Shown here one piece after another: positions 6,916-37,492 of a stretch of 64,000 bases of DNA (the stretch's first letter is position 1; every line of letters starts with the position of its first letter). Location of the stretch: contig NZ_PYBV01000028.1 in NCBI RefSeq assembly GCF_003205615.1, positions 62,001-126,000 on the forward strand. The letters run 5' to 3'. A program made the translations under genes and the position numbers. The DNA is from Micromonospora arborensis. GTDB lineage: Bacteria > Actinomycetota > Actinomycetes > Mycobacteriales > Micromonosporaceae. Under the pieces are notes generated by a model, which was not told the origin of the DNA, made no database searches, and worked only from the letters and a program-made list of their open reading frames with translations.

Positions 6916-7932
6916 TCAGACCAGCCGGCGTCGGATCCACCACAGAGAAAACAGGGACAGTACGGCAGTCAGCGCGAACAGCACGCCGAACTCCCGCCAC
7001 TGCAGGGTCCAGAACTTCGAGCCGGGCACGTAGGTCACCTCCTGCCTGAGGTTCTGCTTCTCCAACCATCTTGGGCACGTCTCGCGATGGCGGGGCGCAT
7101 CCGGGCCGCACTGGGTCATGTCCGCCGGACCATTGAACTCGGCTCCGGTCGAGGTGATCGTGGTGCTCGACACGACCCAGTCACCCCGGCGATCTTGCTC
7201 GACCTGGAGCGTCATCCGTCCGGTGTCGGGGCTCATCGAGATTCCGTACCTCCCGTCCACATCCAGCGGGCTGACCGTGACGACCGGCTGGGCCAACCAG
7301 GGGCGCACCACGAATGGCGCGGCGATCTGGAGGCCGACGATCACGAGCAGGGTCACCGCCATCGCGGCGAGGGTCCGTCGCAGCAGCAGCCCGGTGGTGA
7401 CACCGACCATGAAGGCCAGCGCCGCGTAGCCGACCGGCACGATCCCCCGGGCCGCGAACACCAGCGGGTTCATCCGGTCCGCCGAGGCTCCGTCGATCGG
7501 CTGCGCCCACCTGGTCAGCATCAGGCTGAGCAGGCCGGCGCCGAGCGCCGCGGCCCCACCGCCGACCGCCAGCTTGACCAGCAGCCAGCGGTCCCGGCTG
7601 ACGGACTGACTGAAGACCATTCGGTACGTGCCGGACTCCAGCTCTCGGGCCACCAGCGGCGCGCCCCAGAAGATGCCCACGAGGGCCGGCAGCAGGTACA
7701 GGGCCGCGATGGCGGCAAGGTGGAACTCGCTCGCCCAGCCCGGCTGCAGCGCTTGGAGGAACGCGTCGCCTGCGGCGAGGCAGGCATCGCCCTGGCAGCC
7801 GGTGTATCCGGTCTGCGTGGCCAGGTCCGTCACCTCCGCCCAGGTCAGCGCCAGGCCGCCCATCAGCGCCAGCAGCAGGGCGCCGGTGGTCAGGGCAGGG
7901 GTCCGGAACTGCCGCCAGGTCATCCAGATCAT
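6916..7932 (-). CDS. ABC-2 type transporter permease
   Basis: 338 residues with about six membrane helices: residues 12-34, then near 100 (ALYLLPALVGIFWGAPLVA), 140 (VGGGAAALGAGLLSLML), 175 (GYAALAFMVGVTTGLLL), 195 (MAVTLLVIVGLQIAAPF), and a C-terminal helix (VLFALTAVLSLFSLWWI). A large extracytoplasmic loop precedes the last helix. The start overlaps the stop of the ATPase gene by four bases (ATGA), so the two form one exporter operon with the GntR regulator at its head. Substrate unknown; the YtrA-type regulator suggests envelope stress or antibiotic response. Confidence 0.85.
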   Translation of the reverse strand: MIWMTWRQFRTPALTTGALLLALMGGLALTWAEVTDLATQTGYTGCQGDACLAAGDAFLQALQPGWASEFHLAAIAALYLLPALVGIFWGAPLVARELESGTYRMVFSQSVSRDRWLLVKLAVGGGAAALGAGLLSLMLTRWAQPIDGASADRMNPLVFAARGIVPVGYAALAFMVGVTTGLLLRRTLAAMAVTLLVIVGLQIAAPFVVRPWLAQPVVTVSPLDVDGRYGISMSPDTGRMTLQVEQDRRGDWVVSSTTITSTGAEFNGPADMTQCGPDAPRHRETCPRWLEKQNLRQEVTYVPGSKFWTLQWREFGVLFALTAVLSLFSLWWIRRRLV

Positions 7933-8810
7933 CGCTGTCCCTCCAGAACCCGGTCCGGCCCGTTGCCGGCGGCTCCGCTCATGTACGCCAGCACGATGTC
8001 CTCCAGGTCCAGCTGATCGACCTGCCAGGACGGGTCGACGATCGGAGCGGTGCTGCGTACCACCAGGGTCGACTGCACGTCGGTGTGGCTCTGCTCCACC
8101 AGGGCCCGCCCGGCGCCCAGGTCGACGGTGTCGCGCCGCTGCCCGACGAGGCGGTGGTGGGTGGCGAGCAGGTCGTCCACGTCACCGGCCACCCGTACCT
8201 GAGAGGCGACCAGCACGATCAGGTAGTCGCAGACCCGTTCCAGGTCGGCGACCAGGTGCGAGGACATCACGATGCTCATGCCCTGCTCGGCGGTCAGCTC
8301 CATCAGCCCCTGAAGGAAGGTGCGCCGGGCGAGCGGGTCGAGTGCGGCCACCGGCTCGTCGAGCAGCAGGAGATTGGGCCGCTTCGCCGCGGCGACGGTC
8401 AGGGCCAGTTGGGCGCGCTGACCGCCGGAGAGCTTGCCCGCCTTCTGGTTCGGGTCCAGGCCGACCTGGGCGATCCGCTGTTCGGCGAGCGCAGCGTCCC
8501 AGGACGGATTGAGGTGCGCGCCCATCCGCAGGTGGTCCGCAACGGTCAGGCCGGCATAGACCGGAGTGTCCTGCGCGACGAACCCGACCCGCGGCGACCC
8601 GCTGACCGGTCGCGTGCCGAGCACCTCGATCCGTCCCGCGGTCGGATCGAGCAGCCCACAGGCCAGTTGCAGCAGCGTGGACTTACCGGCGCCGTTCGGC
8701 CCGACCAGGCCCACGACGTGGCCGGCTGGGATGTCCAGAGTGCAGTCCTTGAGTGCGGTACGCCGCCCGTATCGCTTGGTCAGACTGTCGGCGACCAGCG
8801 CGCTAGTCAT
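7929..8810 (-). CDS. ABC transporter ATP-binding protein
   Basis: 293 residues. Walker A is GPNGAGKST near 38, the signature is LSGGQRAQLAL, Walker B is LLLLDEPVAALDP, and the switch histidine is in SSHLVADLERV. The C-terminal 80 residues form the accessory domain common in exporter ATPases. The ATG at 8810 overlaps the stop of the GntR gene (ATGA), which fixes this start; the frame upstream of it is only a shadow of that regulator. It pairs with the permease that follows. Confidence 0.92.
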   Translation of the reverse strand: MTSALVADSLTKRYGRRTALKDCTLDIPAGHVVGLVGPNGAGKSTLLQLACGLLDPTAGRIEVLGTRPVSGSPRVGFVAQDTPVYAGLTVADHLRMGAHLNPSWDAALAEQRIAQVGLDPNQKAGKLSGGQRAQLALTVAAAKRPNLLLLDEPVAALDPLARRTFLQGLMELTAEQGMSIVMSSHLVADLERVCDYLIVLVASQVRVAGDVDDLLATHHRLVGQRRDTVDLGAGRALVEQSHTDVQSTLVVRSTAPIVDPSWQVDQLDLEDIVLAYMSGAAGNGPDRVLEGQR

Positions 8811-31699: not shown

Positions 31700-32593
31700 T
31701 CAGGCGGTCGGCGGCGGGGTGGGCAGCTTGTCGACAACCACCACGCTGCTGCCGGGACGGACCTCGGCCAGCAACTCCCGCTGACCGCTGCGGGTCAGCC
31801 GGATGCACCCGTTCGTAGTGTTCTCACCCAGCTCGTCGTCGTTGTGCCAGGTGTGCACCCCGATGTGCGCGCCGCGCAGGCTGTCCGGCACCGACTCCGG
31901 GTCGTCGGGCACCGCGCCGAGGGCGTAGACGTCCACTCCGCCGTAGACCTCCTCGGGTGGCGGGGTGCGGCCCAGGATGAAGGTCCGCCCGAGCGGAGTG
32001 TCCTGCCCCGACTGGCCGAGGCTCACCTCCCAGGAGCGCACCGCCTTGCCGGCCCGGTACCAGGTGAGTCGGTGGACCTTGCGTTCCACCACGATCTGGT
32101 CGCGCAGCGGCACGGTGTCGAACCCGCCGGGAGGCAGCCAGGCGAGCCGCCGGTTGGCGGAGGGCAGCAGGACCGCCGTCCAGCCGGCGCGCCGGTCGGC
32201 GATCGGCATGGTCAGGTCGACACCGCTGATCGTCGGTTCGAGGAAGGCTCGCGGTCGGCCGCCGGGTGCGTCGTACGCGGCGAGCCGTTTGGTCGGGTGC
32301 GCGCCCTCGGTCAGCGGTGTGGTGTCCATGCTGGCCGGATCGACGGGGAACCCTCCGGGCGCGGGGTCGTAGTCGACCACCGGTAGCCCGGCTGGGGCGG
32401 GCGCGGCCGCGGGGATCGACTCCTCCGGGCTCTGCTCGACACTGCTCGGCGTGGGGGCGGACGCCGCAGTCGGCCGGTCGGGGTCCGTCGACTGCGGCGT
32501 CAGGGCCTGGCCCACCAGCAGCGCGGCCACCAGCAGCGCGGGTACGGCGATGGCGGCGCCAACCCAGACGCCACGGCGGCGGTACGGGGACAT
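31700..32593 (-). CDS. L,D-transpeptidase (YkuD) with N-terminal membrane anchor
   Basis: 297 residues. An uncleaved signal anchor at about 12-32 is followed by a Pro/Ser/Thr linker and then the YkuD domain: HIGVHTWH (histidine) and NTTNGCIRL, with the catalytic cysteine in GC. These enzymes make 3-3 cross-links in peptidoglycan or attach proteins. The start is ATG 32593; a GTG five codons upstream (32608) is an alternative. Convergent with the response regulator. Confidence 0.88.
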   Translation of the reverse strand: MSPYRRRGVWVGAAIAVPALLVAALLVGQALTPQSTDPDRPTAASAPTPSSVEQSPEESIPAAAPAPAGLPVVDYDPAPGGFPVDPASMDTTPLTEGAHPTKRLAAYDAPGGRPRAFLEPTISGVDLTMPIADRRAGWTAVLLPSANRRLAWLPPGGFDTVPLRDQIVVERKVHRLTWYRAGKAVRSWEVSLGQSGQDTPLGRTFILGRTPPPEEVYGGVDVYALGAVPDDPESVPDSLRGAHIGVHTWHNDDELGENTTNGCIRLTRSGQRELLAEVRPGSSVVVVDKLPTPPPTA

Positions 32594-32843: not shown

Positions 32844-34448
32844 ATGGCCCGGGCACAGCAGAACCAGAAGGCGGCCACCGTCCGGACCAGCGCCAGCAGT
32901 CGGGGGGTGCGCGCCCCGTCCCGGTCGGCGACCACCCTGCTGATCGCGTCGGTGCTCGCCGCGCTCTGGGCAGCGATCATGCTGACTGGCGCCGGCCAGA
33001 CGGCGTACGCGTACGGCTTCTTCTTCACCGAGTTCTTCGCCGGGGTGGTCTCCCTGGTGGCGTTGAGCCTCACCGTGATGCTCGGTCTGCTCGCCACCGA
33101 CCGGCTGGTGCTGCGCATCTCGCACCGGGTGCTGATGCAGTCGGCGCACCGGGCCACCGGCGTGCTGGGCGTGGCCGGGCTCGGCTTCCACGTCCTCACC
33201 AAGATCGCCACCGGGCGGGCGGCGGCGACCGACGCGCTGGTGCCGTTCGTCGGCGGCCGAGGGCTCTACGTCGGGCTCGGCACGGTGGCCGCCCTGCTGA
33301 TGGTCAGCGTGATCTGGACCGGCATCATCCGGGCCCGCTTCGCCGGCGTCGGTCCGAAGTGGCTGTGGCGAACGCTGCACTCCACCGCGTACCTGGCCTG
33401 GCCGTTCGCTGTCTTTCACGGCCTCAACGCCGGTCGGGCCGCAGCGCCCTGGGTGATTTTCAGCTACCTCGGCTGCATCCTGCTGGTGATCCTGGCACTG
33501 CTGGTCCGGCTCTCGGTCACCATCGGACGCCGTAGCCGCGAGCAGCACCAGGCCGCGGTGCACAACGCGGCACTGGCCGGCCGGGACGGTGCGGCGGCCC
33601 GTGGCCGATCGCTGCTGAGCCGACGCCGCGGCGCCGACGCGGACAAGCGGCCCGCCTGGGCGGAGAGCACCACCGCCACCTGGGCCGCGCCGGCCGCGCG
33701 GCGCGACCCCGAACGGTTCACCGTTCCGGTGGTGCCCGAGCCCGGCTCGCTCGCCGAGCCGACCCGACCCAGTCGACGCCGCCGCGAGGAAGAACCGGCG
33801 GCCCGCCGCGACACCGAACGGCCCTCGCGCGGCCGACGCGACGAGGTGGAACCCGCGACCCGCCGGTCGACGCGGCGCAGCGTGGAGCAGACCGTCACCC
33901 GGCGGCGCGACGAGGAGGAGTTGGAGCCGGTGACCCGGCGGCGCTCGCGTACCCGGGACGAGGCTGCTCCGAGCGGGCGACGACGCGCCGAGGAACCGGT
34001 CACCGAGCGTTCCAGCCGCCGGTCCCGCAGCGAGGACGACGGCAGCCGGTACTCCGCGCCGCCGCAGCCGGTCGAGCCCGAGGAGCCGTGGGACAGCCCG
34101 CGCCGGTGGCAGGCCGCCGAGCCGATCTCGGCCGGCCCGGTCTCCGCCGAGCCGATCTCCACCGGCCCGATCTCGGCCAGCCCGATCTCGGCGACGCCGC
34201 GCAGCGGCAGCGGCCGGCACAGCGTCGAGGACGACGTGCCGGAGGAGCCGGACTACTGGCGTCCGCCGGCCCGGTACGTGCCCGAAGACGTGCCGCCGCC
34301 CGTCGACGACACCCCGACCCTTGTCGACCTGGCGTCCCGGCGCGCTCGACGGGCCGCCGGCGAGGGCCGGTCCGCCAAGCGTCGCAAGGCCAGCGCCGAC
34401 GCGGTGGACGGGGCGTACTGGGCCGGGCTGCGGGGTGAGGCGAAATGA
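32844..34448 (+). CDS. ferric-reductase/NOX-like bis-heme membrane protein with long charged tail
   Basis: 534 residues from ATG 32844, preceded by GAGGAG. Six or so helices span 28-230. Four histidines have NADPH-oxidase/ferric-reductase spacing: H102 and H116 (14 apart) and H179 and H192 (13 apart), as in the two bis-His hemes of gp91phox. The FAD/NAD domain of those proteins is absent. In its place is a ~300-residue Arg/Glu/Pro-rich tail with short repeats (EPISAGPVSAEPISTGPISA), probably cytosolic. The stop overlaps the next gene, a NuoF-like NADH dehydrogenase. I infer that electrons from NADH reach the hemes through that partner. Confidence 0.75.
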   Translation: MARAQQNQKAATVRTSASSRGVRAPSRSATTLLIASVLAALWAAIMLTGAGQTAYAYGFFFTEFFAGVVSLVALSLTVMLGLLATDRLVLRISHRVLMQSAHRATGVLGVAGLGFHVLTKIATGRAAATDALVPFVGGRGLYVGLGTVAALLMVSVIWTGIIRARFAGVGPKWLWRTLHSTAYLAWPFAVFHGLNAGRAAAPWVIFSYLGCILLVILALLVRLSVTIGRRSREQHQAAVHNAALAGRDGAAARGRSLLSRRRGADADKRPAWAESTTATWAAPAARRDPERFTVPVVPEPGSLAEPTRPSRRRREEEPAARRDTERPSRGRRDEVEPATRRSTRRSVEQTVTRRRDEEELEPVTRRRSRTRDEAAPSGRRRAEEPVTERSSRRSRSEDDGSRYSAPPQPVEPEEPWDSPRRWQAAEPISAGPVSAEPISTGPISASPISATPRSGSGRHSVEDDVPEEPDYWRPPARYVPEDVPPPVDDTPTLVDLASRRARRAAGEGRSAKRRKASADAVDGAYWAGLRGEAK

Positions 34449-35911
34449 TGCGGACAGCCGTGCCACCGGTCGCCTGCGTGGGCGAGCCCCGGCTCACCGC
34501 CGGCTTCGCCGAGTACGGCCGGCTCGACCTGGCCGCGCACGAGGAGGTGCACGGCCCGATCGGTCCGATGGAGCCGGCTCAGCTGCTCCGGCTCGCCGAG
34601 GGCATGCAGCTCAAGGGCAAGGGCGGGGCGGGTTTCCCGTTCGCCCGCAAGCTGCGCGCCGTGCTGGAGTCCTGCGAACGGCAGGACCTCGCAGCCGTGG
34701 TGGTGGTCAACGCCAGCGAGGGGGAGCCGGCCAGTTGGAAGGACAAGGTGCTGCTGACCCGCGCACCGCACCTGATCCTGGACGGCGCGGCGTTGGCCGC
34801 GTACGCGCTGGACGCCGACGAGATCGTCATCGGTGTGGCCGACGACGGGGTCGGCCGGGACTCGTTGATGGAGGCCCTCGAAGAGCGCCGGATGCCGGTG
34901 CTGACCACCATCGTCACCGTGCCGCACCGGTTCATCTCCGGCGAGGGCGGCGCACTGGTCAACGGAATCAACGGGCTGCCGCACATTCCGCCCGGCACCA
35001 AGAAGCGCTCCAGCGACTCCGGGGTCAGCGGCCTGCCCACCCTGCTGTCCAATGCCGAGACGTACGCCCAGCTCGCCGTCGGGGCGCGACTCGGCCCGTA
35101 CGAGTACGCGGCGCTCGGCACCGACGACGAGCCGGGCACCGTGCTGCTCACCGTGACCGGCGCGGCGGGCCGACCGGCCGTGGTGGAGTGCACCGCCGGG
35201 ATGCCGCTGCGCGACGTCCTCGACCTGTGCGAGGTCCCGGAGACCCAGGGCATCCTGATGGGCGGCTACCACGGCAAGTGGATCACGCCGGAGGCGGCGG
35301 AGAAGGCCGAGGTCTCCCGCAAGGGCCTGGCCGCGGTGGGTGGCACGCTCGGCGCGGGCATCATCGTCCCGCTCGGTGTCGACACCTGCCCGCTCGGTGA
35401 GGCCGCCCAGGTGGTGCGCTACCTCGCCGGTGAGTCCGCCGGCCAGTGCGGGCCGTGCAAGATGGGCCTGCCCGACCTGGCCCGCGCCCTCGACCTGGCC
35501 GTCGCCGGCAGTCAACCGGCCGACGTGGTGCGGGCCGCCGCCGGCGAGGTGAAGGGCCGGGGCGCGTGCAGCCACCCGGACGGCACCGCCCGGTTCGCGC
35601 TCTCCGCGATCGAGGTCTTCACCGAGGACCTGCGGATGCACAGCACCGGTGACGGCTGCGGCCGGCGGGTCAAGGGCGTGATGGGGTTGCCCGGCGCACC
35701 CGATGCCAACCCGCAGAAGCTCACCCTGGACTGGTCGCGCTGCGACGGGCACGGGCTCTGCGCGCACGTCGTACCGGACTTCATCCGGCTCGACGCGAAC
35801 GGCTTTCCCGCCTTCCCGCCCACCCCCGTGCCGACCTGGCTGCGGGAGGGCGCGCTGAAGGCGGTCAAGGTGTGCCCGGAGCTGGCCCTGCGACTCGCCA
35901 AGGCCGAGTAG
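34445..35911 (+). CDS. NuoF-like NADH dehydrogenase fused to a [3Fe-4S]-type ferredoxin
   Basis: 488 residues. FMN/NADH-binding NuoF core: LKGKGGAGFPFARK at 57-69, NASEGEPASWKDK at 89-101, FISGEGGALVNGI near 163-175. An SLBB-like segment and an Fe-S region follow, with C335, C338 and C375. The first cysteine of the usual SCGxCxPC motif is Ala332, so cluster N3 would lack a ligand unless another Cys substitutes. The C-terminal 60 residues form an actinobacterial ferredoxin (C433-x5-C439 and C477-P). It overlaps the heme-protein gene by 4 bp, so the two are co-translated. Confidence 0.85.
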   Translation: MMRTAVPPVACVGEPRLTAGFAEYGRLDLAAHEEVHGPIGPMEPAQLLRLAEGMQLKGKGGAGFPFARKLRAVLESCERQDLAAVVVVNASEGEPASWKDKVLLTRAPHLILDGAALAAYALDADEIVIGVADDGVGRDSLMEALEERRMPVLTTIVTVPHRFISGEGGALVNGINGLPHIPPGTKKRSSDSGVSGLPTLLSNAETYAQLAVGARLGPYEYAALGTDDEPGTVLLTVTGAAGRPAVVECTAGMPLRDVLDLCEVPETQGILMGGYHGKWITPEAAEKAEVSRKGLAAVGGTLGAGIIVPLGVDTCPLGEAAQVVRYLAGESAGQCGPCKMGLPDLARALDLAVAGSQPADVVRAAAGEVKGRGACSHPDGTARFALSAIEVFTEDLRMHSTGDGCGRRVKGVMGLPGAPDANPQKLTLDWSRCDGHGLCAHVVPDFIRLDANGFPAFPPTPVPTWLREGALKAVKVCPELALRLAKAE

Positions 35912-35951
35912 GGAAGGGCACCTTCCGCACGACTGTCGAACGGAGACGCGG

Positions 35952-36572
35952 ATGCGCAGCTGGCACGCACGGGGATGGCGGTCCAGGGTTGGTGTGGCCC
36001 GCCGGGTCGGCACCGCTGCGGCGCTGACCGCCGCCCTGCTCGGTGCGGTCTCCTGCACCGGCACGGCCGACCCGGCACCGGCGGTCGCCGGTACCGCACC
36101 GGCGGCCACCGGCACCGCACCGGCCGGCACCGGCACCGGCTCGCCGAGCGTCGCCCCGGCACCGGTGCCGGACGTCCTGCGCTTCACCGGGACCACCCTC
36201 ACCGGTACCGCGTTCGACGCGGCGCAGTTCGCCGGCAAGCCGGTGGTGCTGTGGTTCTGGGCGCCGTGGTGCGCCACCTGCGCCAGCCAGGCGTGGACGG
36301 TGGCGGAGATCGCGCCGAAGTACCGGGACACCGTGCCGATCGTCGGCGTCGCCGGGCTCGGTGAGCAGCGGGCCATGAAGGAGTTCGTCACCGAGTTCGA
36401 CCTGGCCGGGACGACCCAGGTGGACGACCGCAAGGGCGCGCTCTGGAAGCGGTTCAAGGTGACCGAACAGAGCATCTTCGTGATCATCGACCGGACCGGC
36501 ACCGTGGTCCACCAGGGTTTCCTGGACGGTGAGGCGCTCAGCGCCCGGGTCGCCGCGCTGGCCGGGGCGTGA
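35952..36572 (+). CDS. TlpA/DsbE-like thioredoxin lipoprotein
   Basis: 206 residues. The signal ends in a lipobox-like LLGAVSC (Cys35), a Thr/Pro/Ala linker follows, and a thioredoxin fold begins near 85. The active site WCATC (C107, C110) lies in WFWAPWCATC. This matches extracytoplasmic reductases/oxidases like mycobacterial DsbE/Mpt53. CcdA directly downstream (GTGA overlap) could supply electrons from the cytosol. Membership in the redox cluster is by position. Confidence 0.88.
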   Translation: MRSWHARGWRSRVGVARRVGTAAALTAALLGAVSCTGTADPAPAVAGTAPAATGTAPAGTGTGSPSVAPAPVPDVLRFTGTTLTGTAFDAAQFAGKPVVLWFWAPWCATCASQAWTVAEIAPKYRDTVPIVGVAGLGEQRAMKEFVTEFDLAGTTQVDDRKGALWKRFKVTEQSIFVIIDRTGTVVHQGFLDGEALSARVAALAGA

Positions 36573-37492
36573 CCGGCCCGCTGCTGCTCGCGCTGACCGC
36601 GGGCATGCTCGGCGCGGTCAACCCGTGCGGCTTCGCGTTGCTGCCCGCGTACCTCTCGCTGTTGGTCGCCGGGGCGTCGGACACCCGCGGCGCGGTCGGT
36701 CGCGCGCTCACCGCGGCGGCCGGGCTGACCCTGGGGTACGTGCTGGTCTTCGGCGCGTTCGGCCTGGCGCTCGCGCCGCTCGCCGGTTGGCTGCGACCCC
36801 GCCTGCCATGGCTGACCGTGACGCTCGGCGCGCTGCTGGTGCTGGCCGGTTGTTGGCTGCTCGCCGGACGGCGACTGCCCACCCCCGGCTGGTCGGCCCG
36901 AGCGCCCCGGCTGACCCGTTCCTGGCCGTCGATGGCCCTGTTCGGCGCGGCGTACGCGTTGGCGTCGCTCGGCTGTGCCATCGCCCCGTTCCTGGCCATC
37001 GTGGTGACCAGCCTGCAGGCCGGCTCGACCGGCCATGGGCTGGCGCTGTTCGGGGCGTACGCCCTGGGGATGGGTCTGGTGGTCGCGGTCGCCGCGCTCG
37101 GGGTGGCGCTGTTGCGCGACGGTCTGGTGGCCCGGCTGCGTGTCGCCGGCGCGTTGGTGCCCCGCCTCAGCGGCCTGGTGCTGCTGCTCGCCGGAGGTTA
37201 TGTCGCCTGGTACGGCCGGTACGAGTTGCGGCTGGCCGCCGGCCGCCGAGACGCGCTGCACGACCCGGTCATCCGAGCAGCTTCCCAGCTGCAACACGCC
37301 CTGGCCGACACCCTGAACCCAACGGCACTGCTAGCCGCCCTAGCAACCCTCCTACTGACAGCAGCCCTAATCCGCCGCTCCCGCCCCACCCCGCCGCCGC
37401 GTCACCCTCCCCGCGATCTTGCACTTACTGTCGCGGCAAAAGCCGCGGAGGGTCCTATTTCGGGGACCGAAAGTGCAAGATCGACGGGATGA
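36569..37492 (+). CDS. CcdA-type thiol-disulfide electron carrier membrane protein
   Basis: 307 residues and six helices. Conserved Cys20 lies in AVNPCGFALLP and the second cysteine in LASLGCAIAPF, as in CcdA/DsbD-alpha. These pass reducing equivalents from cytosolic thioredoxin to external thiol proteins. GTG start overlapping the thioredoxin gene. The last ~26 residues are encoded by the palindromic repeat at 37414-37483 and look like an accidental extension. Confidence 0.88.
   Translation: MTGPLLLALTAGMLGAVNPCGFALLPAYLSLLVAGASDTRGAVGRALTAAAGLTLGYVLVFGAFGLALAPLAGWLRPRLPWLTVTLGALLVLAGCWLLAGRRLPTPGWSARAPRLTRSWPSMALFGAAYALASLGCAIAPFLAIVVTSLQAGSTGHGLALFGAYALGMGLVVAVAALGVALLRDGLVARLRVAGALVPRLSGLVLLLAGGYVAWYGRYELRLAAGRRDALHDPVIRAASQLQHALADTLNPTALLAALATLLLTAALIRRSRPTPPPRHPPRDLALTVAAKAAEGPISGTESARSTG
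37414..37483. repeat. 70-bp palindromic element with two internal hairpins, over the ccdA 3' end
   Basis: Outer arms CGATCTTGCACTT (37414-37426) and AAGTGCAAGATCG (37471-37483) pair perfectly (13 bp). Inside are CGCGGC-AAAA-GCCGCG and GGTCC...GGACC, so the strand could fold into a three-arm shape. It lies within the last codons of ccdA and next to the convergent serS end. The form suggests a REP-like or miniature mobile element. Confidence 0.75.

Follow-up and report, generated by a model that had tools for sequence, protein, structure and literature searches.

Organization of the locus

The window analysed here is a 64,000-nucleotide stretch of contig NZ_PYBV01000028.1 of Micromonospora arborensis, and the system in question occupies positions 32844–37492 of it. 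Four genes lie there on the forward strand, which encode a membrane protein (hereafter MEM) resembling the bis-heme core of NADPH oxidases (NOX) and ferric reductases, a NuoF-like protein fused to a ferredoxin, a TlpA-like lipoprotein and a CcdA-like protein. We consider it likely that the first two genes specify a split, NOX-like exporter that would move electrons outward across the membrane, that the branch to which they belong (class I, below) derives from a second one (class II), and that the thiol genes are an add-on. The features are the following:

32844–34448, +: MEM, predicted bis-heme membrane protein of the ferric reductase domain (FRD) superfamily, 534 residues (open reading frame)
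32922–33560, +: six-helix heme domain of MEM, residues 27–239 (AlphaFold helices 27–47, 49–84, 92–122, 141–165, 172–195 and 202–239)
33147–33191, +: MEM helix 3, His102 to His116 (invariant in 72/72; aligned to the SpNOX helix-3 His pair)
33378–33419, +: MEM helix 5, His179 to His192 (invariant in 72/72; aligned to the SpNOX helix-5 His pair)
33561–34445, +: low-complexity Arg/Ala/Pro/Glu-rich arm of MEM, predicted cytosolic, about 295 residues (composition)
34416–34442, +: C-terminal peptide YWxxLRGEA of the arm, predicted docking motif (conservation in class I)
34445–35911, +: NuoF-like protein fused to a ferredoxin, 488 residues (Pfam; AlphaFold pLDDT 90)
34607–35074, +: FMN-binding (Complex1_51K) domain of the NuoF-like protein, residues 55–210 (PF01512, 3.9e-27)
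35402–35659, +: iron–sulfur region of the NuoF-like protein, residues 320–405 (Pfam; site table)
35723–35893, +: C-terminal ferredoxin of the NuoF-like protein, CxxHxxC...CP, predicted [3Fe-4S] (PF13459)
35952–36572, +: DsbF/MPT53-like thioredoxin-fold lipoprotein (TlpA-like), WCATC, optional accessory (3ios, 1.8e-28; 1lu4, 1.3e-24)
36569–37492, +: CcdA-like thiol transmembrane protein, optional accessory (DsbD_TM, 24.6 bits; cut-off 27.1)

The MEM stop codon (34446–34448) and the ATG of the NuoF-like gene at 34445 create a 4-bp overlap, as had been reported in a preliminary description of the locus, and the NuoF-like protein indeed ends in a ferredoxin (Fer4_15). The same description had the thiol genes coupled by overlap: this holds between the TlpA-like and CcdA-like genes (4 bp, 36569–36572), whereas 40 bp separate the NuoF-like stop from the TlpA-like start. 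Gene calls come from a home-made caller, which misplaced some starts and missed a divergent gene of the window; for MEM, the start ATG at 32844 is favoured because the N-terminal motif MARxxQ also occurs in three of the seven relatives compared with the window (L033, L037 and L042). The missed gene, upstream of the operon at 31700–32593 (−), encodes a YkuD L,D-transpeptidase; it adjoins MEM also in L032, L034 and L077 and is one gene off in L076. No match to FMN_bind or ApbE was found within the window, the nearest on the same contig lying at 172485–173427, about 75 kb past the NuoF-like gene.

A predicted bis-heme core

MEM has histidines at positions 94, 102, 116, 179, 192, 235, 240 and 459, and the preliminary description had singled out 102/116 and 179/192 for their spacings of 14 and 13 residues. 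In an alignment of 72 sequences headed by the window copy, with identities to that copy of 21 to 93%, these four histidines are invariant (72/72), down to 21% identity. Pfam searches of the 72 relatives (E up to 0.1) returned PF01794 (Ferric_reduct) for 47 of them, with a best value of 2.7e-12, DUF4405 for 16 and Ni_hydr_CYTB (cytochrome b561) for seven, the window copy being unmatched. The AlphaFold model of MEM (pLDDT 89) consists of six long helices, and fold comparison by VIA-align ranks SpNOX first (Z 13.2 over 152 residues), followed by STEAP2 (12.9), STEAP4 (12.6), cytochrome b561 (12.2) and NOX5 (11.5), scores to be read with the caveat that unrelated helical bundles can reach Z near 13–14. 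When the MEM profile is aligned with SpNOX, the helix-3 and helix-5 His pairs coincide, albeit weakly (E 0.018), the helix-3 stretch alone not being significant. Altogether, the invariant histidines, the PF01794 matches of the relatives, the model, the NOX/STEAP/b561 fold and the SpNOX alignment support the proposed bis-heme NOX/ferric-reductase-type core, with heme as a predicted cofactor.

In SpNOX, H69 and H129 ligate the inner heme and H82 and H142 the outer one (PMC11031084); in MEM, His102/His179 would hold the inner heme and His116/His192 the outer heme. A placement of the histidines facing each other in the bilayer, on which the preliminary description had made its reading depend, was judged from the alignment and the fold, with which it agrees. 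The N-terminus and the loops after helices 2, 4 and 6 are basic as judged by eye, so that, by the positive-inside rule, both ends of the heme domain are predicted to be cytosolic. In keeping with the earlier description, the window copy shows no FAD/NAD domain: at E ≤ 1 neither Pfam nor NCBIfam has a model that matches it, and where such a domain would stand it carries the low-complexity arm.

Pairing with the NuoF-like gene

The preliminary description had also staked its reading on the co-occurrence of the first two genes in other genomes, and they do co-occur. Across 37 genomes of the genus, including the window's own, a NuoF-like ortholog is present in 31 and a MEM match in 32, one of which (G025) is a fragment; outside the family, 24 genomes of the order gave 12 MEM matches, spread over 10 of them and all 12 beside a NuoF-like match. 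Note that this search used a single sequence, which missed members later found by profile (G052; L014 and L026). A named collection yielded at least 581 relatives, the best 80 of which were kept, with titles that include Streptomyces, Mycobacterium, Arthrobacter, Nocardia, Rhodococcus, Frankia, Actinoplanes and Subtercola. Among these best 80 loci, MEM lies directly upstream in 78 when HMM (hidden Markov model) and tblastn searches are taken together, the other two loci lying no more than 521 nt from a contig end, and ApbE is found in 66. With tblastn alone the count was 73/80, five of the seven misses being recovered by the HMM; conversely, L112 and L144, where no NuoF was called, were recovered by tblastn only.

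The fragment in G025 belongs to an operon remnant (L074, contig C12, approximately 7661–8286) made up of the first 83 MEM codons and the last 28 NuoF codons. It is flanked by the YkuD gene, retained although the operon is deleted, and by a 427-residue gene sized like the next gene of the window. The MEM–NuoF system can thus be lost naturally within the genus.

Two classes of the pair

The 89 NuoF-type rows fall into 49 class I rows, 30 class II rows and ten rows without MEM. Class I comprises the rows in which the ferredoxin is fused to NuoF, with MEM upstream in 48 (the window and L001 being one locus), and class II those with MEM and a separate NuoF. An ApbE gene is adjacent in none of the 49 class I rows, the window included, and in 27/30 class II rows. 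The ten rows without MEM consist of seven class III rows, two NuoF-like rows (L030 and L031) and the true NuoF of the genome (L073). In class III (L025, L028 and L068–L072), the NuoF-like and ferredoxin genes have no adjoining heme gene.

In a tree built from 82 rows after removal of seven near copies (quick search, rooted on NuoF), class I forms a single clade with SH-aLRT support of 100, and the rows that branch nearest to it are class II (99, then 86). The closest of these, L013 and L014, sit on long branches, starred branches being those that the tool advises trusting less. Given the NuoF root, class I is nested in class II, so that class II represents the older state. Class I would accordingly have been derived within class II by losing ApbE and the tail described below, fusing the ferredoxin to NuoF and gaining the cytosolic arm.

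The NuoF-like partner

The NuoF-like protein of the window matches Complex1_51K, SLBB (below cut-off), NADH_4Fe-4S and, at its C-terminus, Fer4_15; its AlphaFold model (pLDDT 90) has a weak hinge at residues 418–420. With an NCBIfam nuoF equivalog score of 144.2 against a cut-off of 558.65, it falls outside NuoF proper. Sites were compared in 164 rows (49 class I, 30 class II, 78 named class II and seven class III), with the genome's own NuoF (L073) as reference. The residues of the FMN (flavin mononucleotide) site are kept in the NuoF-like protein. In complex I, cluster N3 is bound by a CxxCxxC...C set. This set is incomplete here: its first Cys is replaced by Ala (Ala332 in the window) in 160/164 rows, i.e. 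47/49 class I, 30/30 class II, 77/78 named and 6/7 class III. On the other hand, Cys335 and Cys338 are retained throughout (164/164), Cys375 is kept in the window protein, and Cys405, absent in NuoF, is found in 162/164 rows. With the first Cys lost and Cys405 gained, the [4Fe-4S] cluster probably retains four Cys ligands, one of them moved. The fused ferredoxin carries the CxxHxxC...CP pattern, and all ferredoxins of this pattern examined in PMC6237146 were [3Fe-4S] proteins.

Class III resembles the other classes at these sites, the first Cys being lost in 7/7 rows (Ala in six) and Cys405 present in 7/7. It differs at His377 (35573–35575), within a CxHPDG motif, which is found in 154/157 class I, class II and named rows and in none of the seven class III rows. 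His377 is possibly a contact or a ligand tied to the heme partner.

The predicted cytosolic arm of class I

Class I MEM proteins range from 228 to 700 residues in whole length (home-made calls), the arm being highly varied in length and poorly conserved (mean share of the commonest residue, 0.30); its composition points to a disordered segment. Its end is the exception: among the 42 class I rows left after removal of six near copies, 36 end in YWxxLRGEA, compared with 0/30 class II rows and 1/1122 other genes, and a search of the window's own genome with the arm end gave a next best match at E 0.02. A second motif, TPTLV(D/N)L, occurs in 27/42 rows. Four of the rows that lack the peptide (L046, L049, L086 and L087) show a diverged YWT end, and L036 and L047 perhaps lack it because their ends were mis-called. 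The peptide probably serves to hold the NuoF–ferredoxin protein at the membrane.

A predicted flavin tail in class II

In class II, an open reading frame with a Ser/Thr/Pro/Glu-rich end stops at the ApbE start, its stop codon falling at +1 or −4 relative to the called ApbE start in 49/67. Using a composition rule, we found such a tail in 83/102 testable class II MEM loci (four more being at the edge of a stretch, and L062 and L092 being the same locus), namely in 72/82 with ApbE next to MEM and in 11/20 without. The tails end in (S/T)x(G/A)(S/T) in 74/83, whereas the control at 1710 other gene starts gave 124 low-complexity reading frames, 11 of them with the motif. The strict motif ends 2/1869 other called genes and occurs at 89/5509 positions inside tails. 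An earlier count by a narrow pattern gave 48 strict tails, 19 relaxed tails and 15 loci with none among 82 loci, three being at an edge; two relaxed tails (L023 and L026) continue for two residues past the motif. Unannotated and of low complexity, the tail proteins mostly have a single hydrophobic helix (a hydrophobic 19-mer in 55/67), and the eight that were scanned matched no Pfam or NCBIfam family above cut-off. Examples, immediately preceding ApbE or the heme gene, are:

L062, 10476–10775, −
L129, 3964–4359
L100, 3850–4173
L126, 3939–4250

The ApbE target motif is D-x-x-[S/T]-G-A-[S/T]; seven residues suffice, the Asp can be replaced with little effect, and tags work best at either terminus (PMC12052999). 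At the Asp position the tails have His (21), Gln (16) or Asp (16). From these data the class II tail is predicted to be a minimal, membrane-anchored FMN carrier. Two features argue against its flavinylation: the tails nearly always end in Ser, which ApbE uses less well than Thr, and they deviate from the motif by Gly for Ala in 52/67 and by Ser for Gly in 17/67, Gly/Ala changes being known to lower the yield (PMC12052999). We find the evidence evenly balanced on a more specific proposal, namely that in actinomycetes generally the class II chain ends in covalent FMN on the last Ser, within an ApbE-type motif, of a Ser/Thr/Pro-rich, single-helix tail that has no folded FMN domain and would swing between the outer heme and acceptors, that the window's branch dropped this tail and gained a cytosolic arm holding the donor, and that several genera took a thiol carrier instead.

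In five loci (L018, L099, L101, L103 and L119), the last four titled Mycobacterium or Mycolicibacterium, the tail gene lies directly upstream of the heme gene with no ApbE beside it and ends in SRGS or ARGS. We also considered a tail of class I's own upstream of MEM and rejected it, as none was found in 37 testable loci (11 more being at a stretch edge).

The thiol genes

In the TlpA-like protein, Cys35 lies in a lipobox that looks plausible by eye, and a WCATC motif is present; matches to the structures 3ios and 1lu4 place the protein in the DsbF/MPT53 group, with the CxxC site present. The CcdA-like protein scores just under the DsbD_TM cut-off and displays NPCGF and a second Cys, in SL(G/S)C, in a later helix, both of which are also found in L032, L040 and L042.

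The preliminary description had treated these genes as a branch of the system, but their distribution places them outside its core. In a sample of 150 genomes of the family, 77 of which have class I, TlpA lies beside NuoF in 30/77, as read by eye from the gene tables (G185, undecided through a contig break, being counted as non-adjacent): 13/16 in the window's genus, 14/14 in genus g51, 1/1 in g42, 1/1 in g50, 1/7 in g56 and none in 14 other genera. The 49 fused rows include 20 with TlpA and 18 with CcdA; TlpA comes without CcdA in three, of which L010 lies on a short stretch, and CcdA, in a partial copy, comes without TlpA in one (L009). Even within one genus, loci can be without TlpA, CcdA or both. 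This patchiness indicates that the thiol genes are accessory to the pair, and led us to reject the four genes as one obligate unit. In three class I loci from two genera (L048, L051 and L052), small secreted proteins stand downstream of the pair, directly or one gene on, in TlpA's place; they are DUF305-like (by eye) and a lipoprotein.

Proposed electron path and alternatives

In the likely reading given at the outset, a reduced cytosolic donor, probably NADH and less surely another pyridine nucleotide, would reduce the FMN of the NuoF-like domain. From there electrons would reach the [4Fe-4S] cluster, held by Cys335, Cys338, Cys375 and probably Cys405 in its new place, and next the [3Fe-4S] ferredoxin fused at the C-terminus. 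The inner heme (His102/His179) would take them from the ferredoxin and hand them on to the outer heme (His116/His192), from which they would leave for an acceptor outside. The arm of about 295 residues would tether the NuoF–ferredoxin protein at the membrane through YWxxLRGEA. Class II would probably pass its electrons to FMN set by ApbE on the end of the flexible, membrane-anchored tail. Five genera of the family, the window's own among them, probably acquired a DsbF/MPT53-like protein, often together with CcdA, as a second extracytoplasmic reducing branch. Of all this, the data show the gene pairing, the invariant histidines, the fold, the tree and which genes are present or absent, while the cofactors, the direction, the function of the arm, the flavin on the tail, the acceptor and any heme–thiol link are inferred.

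Several observations weigh against this reading. We found no biochemistry of any member in the literature, and no single extracytoplasmic partner recurs in all class I loci. The window's MEM escapes all Pfam and NCBIfam models, Foldseek returned nothing under E 0.001 (best, 0.027), and cytochrome b of b6f/bc1 complexes also reaches a VIA-align Z of 11.2, on a scale that, as stated, unrelated bundles can climb. The tree comes from a quick search and has L013 and L014 on long branches, and 6/42 class I rows are without the arm peptide. Lastly, the donor site is altered. The NADH site of complex I includes E185, K202 and F205. It also comprises E95, E97, D103 and E184 (PMC6560083). In 47/49 class I rows, Gly takes the place of the second Glu in the GEE motif, a Glu that is present in 15/30 class II, 38/78 named and 7/7 class III rows; the class I rows compared have also lost the KPPFP segment. 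Since residues of the nicotinamide pocket are thus changed in class I, NADH, the donor proposed in the preliminary description, is uncertain.

Four other readings were weighed. The pair might serve metal uptake as a ferric or cupric reductase that reduces the metal outside through its outer heme. Membership in the FRD superfamily fits this idea, the gene right after the ferredoxin is of VIT1 type in the two class II loci L019 and L020, and 153 MsrQ-like clusters with VIT1 have been counted (PMC8238504). Still, the VIT1 profile found just two genes in the first 91 loci plus the window and two in the 80 best named loci, and no metal-transporter-like gene recurs downstream of class I loci (by eye only, no library scan), so that we regard metal reduction as possible but unlikely.

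A second reading joins the four genes in one thiol-reducing chain, in which the heme protein would directly reduce the DsbF/TlpA-like lipoprotein. It draws on the adjacency of TlpA in five genera, the window's included, and on the three fused rows with TlpA alone against one with CcdA alone, which suggest that TlpA is slightly more tied to the pair. Nevertheless, TlpA is not beside the pair in 46/77 class I genomes, one more being undecided; CcdA is an ordinary electron source of TlpA-type proteins; and we know of no precedent for one-electron transfer from a heme to a disulfide. Altogether, we judge the joined chain improbable.

The bacterial NOX being the closest solved fold, the acceptor could also be O2, in a superoxide-producing NADPH-oxidase-like enzyme; we think this quite unlikely, as the fold says nothing on the acceptor and, in class II, ApbE and the predicted flavin tail make a redox carrier the likelier one. 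An inward chain, from an outside or membrane donor through the hemes to ferredoxin or NAD, would suit the altered nicotinamide pocket and the rather positive potential that His-type [3Fe-4S] ferredoxins can have (−31 mV in M. tuberculosis; PMC6237146), but is very improbable given that class II has ApbE, known from outward systems (PMC8238504), and that FRD proteins such as NOX, MsrQ and STEAP move electrons outward (PMC11031084).

Comparison with known systems

A split arrangement of this kind is not without parallel, contrary to the preliminary description, which knew of no described system of this form. STEAP proteins carry their own flavin/NAD(P)H domain. They share with SpNOX, other NOX/DUOX proteins and cytochrome b561 the six-helix bis-heme fold predicted for MEM, the His spacing being that of NOX. 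NOX proteins also bear a flavin/NAD(P)H domain on the same chain (PMC11031084), unlike MEM. MsrPQ comes closer: MsrQ is an FRD heme protein without a flavin domain of its own that works outward with a separate flavoprotein, Fre (PMC5676040, PMC11031084), and with Fre it mimics a two-part NOX (PMC5676040). The difference is that MsrQ's partner is Fre and its acceptor the molybdopterin protein MsrP, while the partner here is a NuoF–ferredoxin protein; no MsrP gene was noticed nearby, no search aimed at it having been made.

The gene pairing itself has appeared in print, in a single sentence, for which reason we rejected the idea of an undescribed pair. Meheust et al. 2021 (PMC8238504) counted 1797 flavinylation clusters of the MsrQ-like kind, widely distributed in Actinobacteria; a NuoF-like protein is part of 31. 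These 31 probably correspond to class II. The portions of the paper dealing with them make no mention of a ferredoxin, a tail or class I. Class I differs from them in having no ApbE or adjoining flavinylated partner (the window has no ApbE, no FMN_bind match and no tail) and in having the fused ferredoxin, the arm and the optional thiol genes. Elsewhere, the available part of a survey of the FRD superfamily (PMC3591440) does not mention 'NuoF', and the new ApbE substrates given in PMC11334425 are Flavodoxin_4 and FMN_red. Among the papers listed, NuoF, MsrQ and flavinylation come together in PMC8238504 and in a Brucella flavoproteome paper (PMC9045290). In one open-licence collection of papers we found no description of class I, the tail or the arm peptide, nor, in the titles and abstracts listed, of a disordered or C-terminal ApbE substrate. 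What appears to be new is the common, class II form with ApbE and tail, the nested class I branch and the optional nature of the thiol genes.

The system is a widespread, little-studied actinobacterial candidate for electron export, which its defined parts now make testable. Its heme/NuoF core occurs in three settings that form a natural contrast: beside a predicted flavin tail, beside a thiol partner, or beside neither of them. If it is flavinylated, the tail would show that a natural ApbE substrate can be very small and have no folded flavin domain, a kind invisible to domain-based surveys. The arm peptide, in turn, gives easy access to the question of how a separate flavoprotein may be attached to a NOX-like heme core.

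Regarding the partner, the NuoF-like protein shares with the NuoF/HydB/RnfC family the FMN domain, the iron–sulfur region and Cys335, Cys338 and Cys375, and departs from it by the lost first N3 Cys, the gained Cys405, the C-terminal ferredoxin and a score far under the NuoF equivalog cut-off. The TlpA-like protein is a close relative of DsbF/MPT53, here with a CcdA-like protein, the difference being its coupling to a heme/NuoF pair. Altogether, the chain proposed in the preliminary description appears right in outline, and what is most unexpected, the predicted flavin tail, belongs to the relatives of the window's system.

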